Assembly (NCBI GenBank): GCA_027449105.1 | Contig: DAIDMG010000005.1 | Coordinates: 1 to 48,520, forward strand | Origin: Acidiphilium sp. | GTDB taxonomy: Bacteria > Pseudomonadota > Alphaproteobacteria > Acetobacterales > Acetobacteraceae | Direction: 5' to 3' | DNA: 48,520 nucleotides | Part shown: one piece after another, positions 1-48,520 of the stretch | Layout: each line of letters opens with the position of its first letter | How positions within the stretch are numbered: position 1 is the first letter of the stretch | Made by a program: the position numbers and the translations under genes | Notes under the pieces: generated by a model | The model's database searches: none | Told to the model about the DNA's origin: nothing | The model's input: the letters and a program-made list of their open reading frames with translations, nothing else

Positions 1-623
1 GTCATCACCGTGGCCCTAGGATCCACGATGCCTTCCAGCGCACTCGCGATGGCTTCCTTGCCGTGCGTCGGAATGACCTTCGCCACCACGTCGCCACCCC
101 GCTCGGCTGCGACCAGCACCAGCGGGCGCTTCGTGCCACGGCCGGTCGGGTTCGGAGGATCGCTGTCATCGTGATCGCGGGATGCCTTCGCTCGTTTCCG
201 GGGCGGCGCGCCCGCATCCATCTCGTCGATCTCGACAACGCCCGAGAGGAGTGGATTGGCCTCTGCCATCATGGCGCGGATCCGGTGCCCAAGATGCCAT
301 GCCGTCACGTAATGCACGTCCAGCATCTCACTCAGCTTCACGGCCGGGATGCCCTTCGACGAGGACACGGTCAGATAGATCGCCTGAGCCCATGTCAGTA
401 GCGGCAGATGTGTCCGGTGCATCGGCGTGCCGGCCGTGACGCTGAACTGCCTCCTGCAGGCCTTGCAGCGCCAGAACCTGGTCTTTGGCATGTAGAGCGC
501 GTTGCCAGCCGCCCCGCAGTGATAACACTCGGGGCCGCTCGGCCAACGCGCCTGCTCAAACCATGCCCGTGCGGCATCCTCGTCGGGGAACATCTCGTTG
601 AAGGCGCGCAGCGACAGGTTCAT
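1..623 (-). mobile_element. IS1595-family (ISXO2-like) transposase, N-terminal part, running off the left window edge
   Basis: Hand translation of the minus strand from ATG at 623 is open to base 1: MNLSLRAFNEMFPDEDAARAWFEQARWPSGPECYHCGAAGNALYMPKTRFWRCKACRRQFSVTAGTPMHRTHLPLLTWAQAIYLTVSSSKGIPAVKLSEMLDVHYVTAWHLGHRIRAMMAEANPLLSGVVEIDEMDAGAPPRKRAK... Contains a CxxC...CxxC zinc ribbon, an HTH and the start of a DDE domain (VVEIDEM). Absent from the ORF track because it has no stop inside the window. Confidence 0.88.
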
Positions 624-975
624 GCTTTGTTCTGCATGTTGTGGTCCGCTTAGTCAATTCGAGAGTTCCGATCTGTTTTATGAACGCGACGATATCGTTG
701 TGAGAGCGCCACGTTCTCGTCGATCAAAATAGGGCTGGGTTAGGGAGATGTCTTGGGCGCGTATCTGGGGTCTCCTAGCTTGCCGCTTTGCCGATAATTC
801 GTCCACGCTAGTTTTTGCATCGCTTTGAATCTCGCTCGTCTTTTTTTCGTCGGGAAGACTTGAGCCCGGCGATCACCCATCGGCGCCGATTGACTTGGTG
901 ATGGTCTATGTAGACTTGCCACTACGAAAACAAGCGAGGCCAAAGCCGGCGATGCCACAACTGGACACCATTACT

Positions 976-18956: not shown

Positions 18957-19330
18957 GGGAACTATCGGGTTGACGTATTGAGCACCAGATGTGGTGCTCT
19001 GGTCTGACTACACATCCGGCCCACGCCGCGTGTTTCCCCGTCGAAGTGGGGATTGGACAATCGTGGGTCGGCGATCGAACATCGGCCACCGGATCAGGTG
19101 CTGAATCGCCCTTGCTTGTTGAACTGACGCAACCGTTCAGTGAGGACGACGTGTTCGACCAAAAGACGGGAACATCGGGGGTTGCCGCGTGTTGACAGTT
19201 ATGCCCCTCTCTCGGCGCGGCTCGACGGTTCACGTTCTCACAAGAAACAGAACTGCTCGACGGCGTGACCAGGGTGATGAACGCGTCTGCCGCAAGCTGA
19301 TTACCACAAGCAACAAGCTGGCTTCGTCGC
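18957..19330 (-). mobile_element. Degenerate IS200/IS605-type remnant: 3' end of tnpB and right end with subterminal hairpin
   Basis: Minus-strand translation QFNKQGRFST*SGGRCSIADPRLSNPHFDGETRGVGRMCSQTRAPHLVLNTST aligns by eye with the TnpB-like C-terminus at the right edge (QFRERRGLSTRSGGRGSTADPRLHNPYFGAEKGNAAPMSGQTKVPHLVLATAT), with an in-frame stop. Perfect hairpin GAGCACCA-GATG-TGGTGCTC at 18980-18999. The 19330 boundary is approximate. Confidence 0.7.
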
Positions 19331-47779: not shown

Positions 47780-47802
47780 CCGGAAGGATCATGCGAAGTC
47801 TT

Positions 47803-48224
47803 GGGAACTATCAAGTTGCCGTAGCAAGCACCAGATGTGGTACTTTGGTCTGACCTGACATCGGAGCCGCGTTACCTTTTTCCGCACCGAAGTATGGGTT
47901 GTGCAATCGCGGGTCGGCGGTGGAACCCCTCCCACCGGATCGGGTGCTGAGCCCCCTGCGCTCGCGGAACTGGCGGACCAATTCGGCGAGGATTGACGCT
48001 TTTGACTGGAACACGGAACCGATAGACAACGCACGGCGCTGTCCGATGTTCCGTGCGGCATTGACATCGGCGTGCATTTGAGTGCCGCAGCACAGGCACC
48101 GGAAGGTGCTTTGTGAAGGGCGATTTCGTTTATCCACGTAGCCGCAGCATGAACATGTCTGCGACGTGTAGGCAGGACTCACTTCTTCCGAGGTGATCCC
48201 GAAGCGATCTTCGAAGTCGGCCAG
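47803..48224 (-). mobile_element. 3' fragment of IS605-type tnpB (RuvC-III/zinc ribbon) plus right-end hairpin/putative omegaRNA
   Basis: LADFEDRFGITSEEVSPAYTSQTCSCCGYVDKRNRPSQSTFRCLCCGTQMHADVNAARNIGQRR is the TnpB/OrfB zinc-ribbon C-terminus. Near-perfect hairpin AGCACCA-GATG-TGGTACT at 47827-47844 at its 3' end. Confidence 0.9.
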
Positions 48225-48520
48225 CTTGGCCCGCTTCCGAGGCGGCGCACATGCATACATCTCGCCGATCTCGACCACGCCTGAAAGGATGGGATTCGGT
48301 TCCGCCATCATGAGGCGAATCCGATGACCAAGATGCCACGCAGTTGCGTTGGAAACACCAGGCATCTCGCTCAGCTTCATGGCGGAGACGCCCTTTGACG
48401 AGGACACGATAAGGTAAATCGCGTGCGCCCATGTCAGCAGCGGCAGATGCGTCCGGTGCATCGGCGTCTCCGCCGTCACCGAGAACTGATGGTGACATGC
48501 GATACAGTTCCAGCGACGCG
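48225..48520 (-). mobile_element. 5' fragment of an IS1595-family transposase, fused in frame to the tnpB fragment and running off the right edge
   Basis: CIACHHQFSVTAETPMHRTHLPLLTWAHAIYLIVSSSKGVSAMKLSEMPGVSNATAWHLGHRIRLMMAEPNPILSGVVEIGEMYACAPPRKRAK is homologous to the left-edge transposase; residue D of VVEIDEM is G here. Confidence 0.9.

Follow-up and report, generated by a model that had tools for sequence, protein, structure and literature searches.

The end of one contig from an Acidiphilium sp. assembly raises the question of how a single open reading frame can begin as an IS1595-family transposase and finish as TnpB, an RNA-guided DNA cutter ancestral to CRISPR-Cas12, and whether such a frame is a decay product or a protein in its own right. 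The stretch of DNA analyzed here (the window; 48,520 nucleotides) is the entire contig C5 (DAIDMG010000005.1) of assembly GCA_027449105.1, which comprises 388 contigs and 2.77 Mb. Our answer is that the feature very probably arose by internal deletion from an insertion sequence with two genes, IS1595-TnpB, and that the fusion is a scar of ordinary decay, not a domesticated protein. The locus contains the following features.

47811–48518, minus strand: fused open frame of 235 codons, with no stop and with its 5′ end open at the contig edge; hidden Markov models (HMMs) match both halves.
48226–48520, minus strand: N-terminal part of the IS1595 transposase, starting with the zinc ribbon and reaching the first DDE motif, whose Asp is replaced by Gly; blastn and NF033547.
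48226–48233, minus strand: deletion junction, the 8 nucleotides CGGGCCAA, aligning to the sequence on either side of the 1653 bp that were lost.
47811–48233, minus strand: C-terminal part of TnpB, with the zinc ribbon and the last RuvC Asp; blastn and PF07282.
47803–47824, minus strand: right terminal inverted repeat, GGGAACTATCAAGTTGCCGTAG on the plus strand; the right end of the element is 47803.
47795–47802, minus strand: presumed 8-bp target duplication, right-hand copy, reading AAGACTTC on the minus strand; the same site is occupied in genome G008.

The frame reads as IS1595 transposase until PPRKRAK and as the C terminus of TnpB thereafter. In HMM searches, residues 22–96 matched the IS1595 transposase model NF033547 (E = 2.4e-14), residues 104–158 the TnpB zinc ribbon PF07282 (E = 1e-17), and residues 105–161 the guided_TnpB model NF040570 (E = 1.2e-17). 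An earlier note on this DNA had described an in-frame switch from IS1595 to TnpB at about 48224, a run of roughly 230 codons without a stop, and a first DDE Asp changed to Gly (VVEIGEM). The frame and the identity of both halves were confirmed, with the switch placed at 48226–48233 and 235 codons counted to the contig edge, and the substitution, at the Asp/Gly position of VVEI(D/G)EM, was seen as described.

Aligned by blastn to a near-complete copy of the parent element (positions q), the IS1595 part of the window corresponded to q432–726 (83%) and the TnpB part to q2372–2805 (84%). Relative to that copy, which is from the sister species G002, 1653 bp are absent, having been lost between two similar 8-nucleotide stretches. 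The deletion is a multiple of three and kept the reading frame; because the halves were already coding and 1653 bp is divisible by three, the open frame is less surprising than it looks. The window copy no longer encodes a live transposase, because its first Asp is lost and its catalytic domain deleted; the HMM search found no match to PF12762 (DDE domain) in the frame, which lacks a complete DDE catalytic domain. It is also dead as a nuclease, because the first two RuvC motifs are deleted, and the C-terminal part alone is left where an entire TnpB has all three.

On sequence grounds, both halves belong to one element of ~2.57 kb, in which an IS1595 transposase gene is followed by a tnpB predicted to be translationally coupled to it. 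In a protein search of 60 relatives, the IS1595 and TnpB halves were repeatedly adjacent. The near-complete copy, on contig C64 of G002, encodes a 323-codon IS1595 transposase and then, in the same orientation, an interrupted tnpB. When this copy was searched against G000, G002 and G008, the matches repeatedly started at ~q235 and ended at ~q2802, whatever was missing inside. The shared ends carry inverted repeats (left, CGGAACTATC...; right, ...GATAGTTCCC) flanked by 8-bp duplications, and the parent is therefore a single two-gene element. It begins with the left inverted repeat and an IS1595-family DDE gene, continues with an overlapping tnpB and a 3′ segment that is structured, and closes with the right inverted repeat. 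Exact 8-bp target duplications were present at 11 independent two-sided sites.

The coding potential of the parent was examined at individual loci. The transposases of L072, L112, L116 and L289 exceeded the Pfam and NCBIfam cut-offs (zinc ribbon, DDE_Tnp_IS1595). The start of tnpB overlaps the transposase stop (TGATG) in L112, L114, L116 and L117, and has an ATGA context in L123, L125 and L127. Both genes are open, between exact 8-bp duplications, in the metagenome-assembled genome JA2.bin15 (L112:2623–5190) and in the cultured Parvibaculum indicum (L116:2631–5185). The element contains neither a Y1 nor a serine transposase, and does not qualify as an IS200/IS605 or IS607 element.

To find relatives, we scanned 84,980 species genomes with the TnpB of the IS1595-TnpB element. 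Close TnpB relatives were found in Acidocella, Parvibaculum, Azospirillum, Halorhodospira, other Ectothiorhodospiraceae, Rhodovibrio, Rhizobium and Paracoccus, and intact or near-intact elements occur in Acidocella, Parvibaculum, Azospirillum, Salipiger, Halorhodospira and Rhodovibrio. In most relatives (Alpha- and Gammaproteobacteria), the gene directly upstream of TnpB encodes an IS1595 transposase; some members, such as L113, L118 and the Rhizobium copies, gave no upstream IS1595 match. On plasmid pTPRO6 of Salipiger profundus, an annotated IS1595 family transposase is directly followed by a 'zinc ribbon domain-containing protein' that is the TnpB of this element. Among 385 sampled Alphaproteobacteria, a TnpB match at 1e-60 occurred only in the window's own genome, which yielded no additional sites; the family, though widespread, is therefore rare.

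Transposase and TnpB identities between elements co-varied across 15 pairs, which are not independent of one another. In the TnpB tree, a supported branch (96/94) separated the IS1595-linked and solo TnpBs from those behind IS607 recombinases. The simplest reading is that an IS607-type TnpB was transferred once to an IS1595 element, although the long branches urge caution. A scan of IMG/VR found only distant TnpBs. Such distant relatives are carried by viral contig L192 (IMG/VR 2864522212_000004) and by Thermus phage TMA (L294), in which the TnpB relative follows a resolvase-like gene.

The fusion in the window is a scar, because other copies have lost other segments and an orthologous insertion has been reduced to a stub: the window insertion adjoins fumC, and in another sister species, G008, no more than a stub of its right end remains. 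Other breakpoints were found in G000:C74, G008:C94, G008:C177, G000:C17 with G008:C150, and G002:C196. One insertion is common to G000:C74 and G008:C114, and its deletions differ between the two genomes, indicating that loss continued after the species split. The earlier note had inferred a chimera in which a dead transposase piece was joined to a TnpB tail, possibly as a recombination scar. The dead piece and the scar stand; the notion of a chimera of separate genes is wrong, because a single IS1595-tnpB element, having lost its middle, supplied both pieces.

The same note had raised a domesticated DNA/RNA-binding protein as an alternative, in which an IS1595 zinc-ribbon/helix-turn-helix DNA-binding module and a TnpB nucleic-acid-binding tail would be kept together under selection. 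We give this almost no credence. The frame is indeed open over 235 codons, and G000:C74 is a second open fusion, of 364 codons; however, breakpoints differ copy by copy, otherwise conserved residues are substituted, and the orthologous G008 site holds a mere stub. The earlier note had proposed searching relatives for the same fusion, and a protein search of 60 relative genomes found the window junction in no other copy. Domestication was rejected, since no orthologue is conserved and the orthologous site has decayed. The ratio of nonsynonymous to synonymous substitutions (dN/dS), also proposed as a check, was 0.1–0.2 in a consensus-based estimate that does not separate the times before and after the deletion; it mirrors the long period over which both genes were active and is no test of selection on the fusion. 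An assembly artefact joining two repeat copies is likewise very unlikely. Related copies are abundant, with dozens of pieces of both halves found across the window's genome by DNA search, and the contig does end in a repeat: 48444–48520 is an exact 77-bp match to the contig ends C43:16863–16939 and C30:1–77, and because these 77 bp are common to three contig ends, the 5′ end of the frame is an unresolved repeat branch. Yet the junction lies at a different place, ~290 bp inside the contig end, the right-end insertion at the same site is confirmed by G008, and other contigs, as well as other genomes, contain similar junctions. Another scenario is that, in this lineage, a TnpB element of the IS605/IS607 type landed in an IS1595 copy or underwent recombination with one, leaving the shared ends as coincidence. 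TnpB elements are usually mobile by themselves and the nearest outside relatives are IS607 TnpBs, but we regard such an event as highly improbable, given that the same pair with overlapping stop and start occurs in many genera, that a single inverted-repeat pair with 8-bp duplications encloses both genes, and that no Y1 or serine transposase is present. Two observations do weigh against an internal-deletion derivative in the window, namely that the left end of this copy lies outside the contig, and that its expected target duplication was not found in either of the candidate joins, C43 and C30. This mismatch could reflect recombination among copies or a mixed population.

We then turned to what TnpB might do in the parent element. 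The parent TnpB has the RuvC D/E/D residues and a C4 zinc ribbon, and scores above the PF07282 cut-off. RuvC residues D268, E352 and D433 (L112 numbering) and the zinc cysteines are conserved in 11 family members (alignment A2). The AlphaFold model, of moderate quality (mean predicted local distance difference test score, 70.6), had its best structural matches in Cas12f and TnpB. Scores against the NCBIfam guided_TnpB model were 75–90 bits, under the curated cut-off of 100 bits, in line with their unspecific 'zinc ribbon' labels in public databases. Standard annotation overlooks these predicted nucleases by calling them 'zinc ribbon domain-containing protein'.

The right end of the element encodes two hairpins, a candidate for the kind of structured RNA that OMEGA (guide-RNA-directed) systems have, and the window copy still has both.

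47918–47937, minus strand: hairpin 1, part of a conserved 3′ structure that is a guide-RNA candidate; alignment A3 columns 35–54, with covariation.
47827–47844, minus strand: hairpin 2, part of the same 3′ structure; alignment A3 columns 149–167, with covariation.

In an analysis of the last 150 nucleotides of 20 elements, compensatory changes were found in 7/13 base pairs of these hairpins. Hairpin cells were paired at 94.8%, versus 83% in shuffles (0/500 shuffles reached the observed values), and pairing dropped to 40–61% in slid controls. No known Rfam family (e.g., RAGATH-18) was detected in 12 loci, and the window gave only a meaningless Acido-1 fragment. A sequence preference was found at the other end of the element. 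The three bases to the left of the 8-bp duplication were ATA or GTA (RTA) at 11/11 independent two-sided sites, versus 4/19 sites of IS1595 elements without tnpB (3/14 in G007 and 1/5 elsewhere; Fisher p = 5e-5). A mirrored motif followed the right duplication at only 1/11 sites. Because a DDE transpososome is two-fold symmetric, a one-sided motif is unexpected from it, and fits a target-adjacent motif of TnpB. Taken together, RTA, the hairpins and the RuvC residues suggest homing by TnpB, with a guide that would begin in the target duplication.

On balance, we consider a homing step by TnpB slightly more likely than not in intact copies. The transposase would move the element, and TnpB would process the 3′ end of its own message into an RNA that it then binds. 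As its guide, this RNA would carry the flank just outside the right end, namely the duplicated target followed by the right flank. An empty site carrying RTA and the guide sequence would be cut and then refilled by recombination with an occupied copy. An occupied site would be spared, as the guide match there is preceded by the right end instead of RTA. Guide RNAs could also come in trans from decayed copies that keep their right end, the window locus among them.

Alternatively, TnpB could be a mere passenger, with RTA set by the transposase of this subgroup and the hairpins serving transposition or termination rather than a guide RNA. Passenger genes are a known feature of IS1595 elements, and we regard this explanation as a possible, if unlikely, one. 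It accounts less readily for the conservation of the RuvC residues and 3′ hairpins, and for a motif on one side only, as a symmetric transpososome usually yields a symmetric preference. Several observations nevertheless count against RNA-guided homing. Both hairpins overlap the 3′ end of tnpB, which is coding sequence, and their conservation could therefore partly be coding. The RTA controls were drawn from other IS1595 subgroups, which also speaks for a passenger. Exceptions to RTA were L134 (CCA), L135 (CTA), an old site common to G000:C52 and G008:C161 (ACC), and a few degraded ends.

In the literature compared here, bacterial TnpB is described only in IS200/IS605 (Y1) and IS607 (serine) elements, which have no inverted repeats or target duplications, and DDE partners are described for eukaryotic Fanzor1 alone (PMC10711439, PMC3627910). 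The parent element resembles the IS1595 family (ISXO2-like DDE) in its zinc ribbon and DDE matches over the cut-offs, its inverted repeats and its 8-bp target duplication, but adds a coupled tnpB, a structured right end and RTA on the left side only. Like IS607 elements with TnpB, it has a transposase gene that overlaps tnpB, and its nearest outside TnpBs sit behind IS607 recombinases; unlike them, it has a DDE transposase instead of a serine recombinase, together with inverted repeats and 8-bp duplications, which are absent in IS607 (PMC3627910). With IS200/IS605 elements (ISDra2) it shares the TnpB RuvC and zinc ribbon and a candidate guide RNA that overlaps the 3′ end of tnpB and reaches the right end, whereas it lacks Y1 and is a double-ended DDE element with target duplication and RTA 8 bp from the left end. 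The eukaryotic DDE transposons of Fanzor1 also combine a TnpB homologue with inverted repeats and target duplications (PMC3627910, PMC10711439), but their proteins are distant and their transposases belong to other superfamilies, and the pairing described here is bacterial.

In the literature compared, which left ISfinder and the large PNAS 2023 TnpB survey outside, we found no report pairing TnpB with an IS1595 or DDE transposase in bacteria; judged within these same bounds, the parent is apparently an undescribed class of bacterial transposon. We cautiously lean towards the view that IS1595-family DDE transposons acquired an IS607-type TnpB and may use it for RNA-guided homing at RTA, the 8-bp target and its flank. 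If so, RNA-guided homing would be attachable to a third transposition chemistry, in a bacterial parallel to the joining of Fanzors with DDE transposons. The sharp prediction, an RTA motif and a guide starting in the duplication, is testable in a cultured strain.

The window holds two further copies of the element.

1–670, minus strand: second copy, with the left end and the IS1595 part, in which the first DDE Asp is present; cut by the contig start.
18957–19159, minus strand: third copy, of which a remnant of the right end is left; its right inverted repeat lies at 18957.

Copies elsewhere differ in what they retain. The start of contig C1 in G000 (L100; 1–1191) carries a 394-codon TnpB frame with all three RuvC residues; if complete, this TnpB could be guided by RNAs from the numerous right-end remnants of that genome. 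The right flank of this copy equals the left flank of G008:C94 (L098), ACGGCCTC, and the two flanks of G008:C94 are unlike each other, suggesting possible ectopic recombination between element copies. In Halorhodospira neutriphila (L149; 3433–3846 and 4001–4195), an IS1595 N-terminal part stands beside a TnpB tail, out of frame, which represents an independent internal deletion, this time in a gammaproteobacterium, within an element of this kind. A deletion derivative on an Indioceanicola plasmid (L287; 2516–4551) has a full-length TnpB and a transposase cut to ~137 residues, with its ends and target duplication intact.
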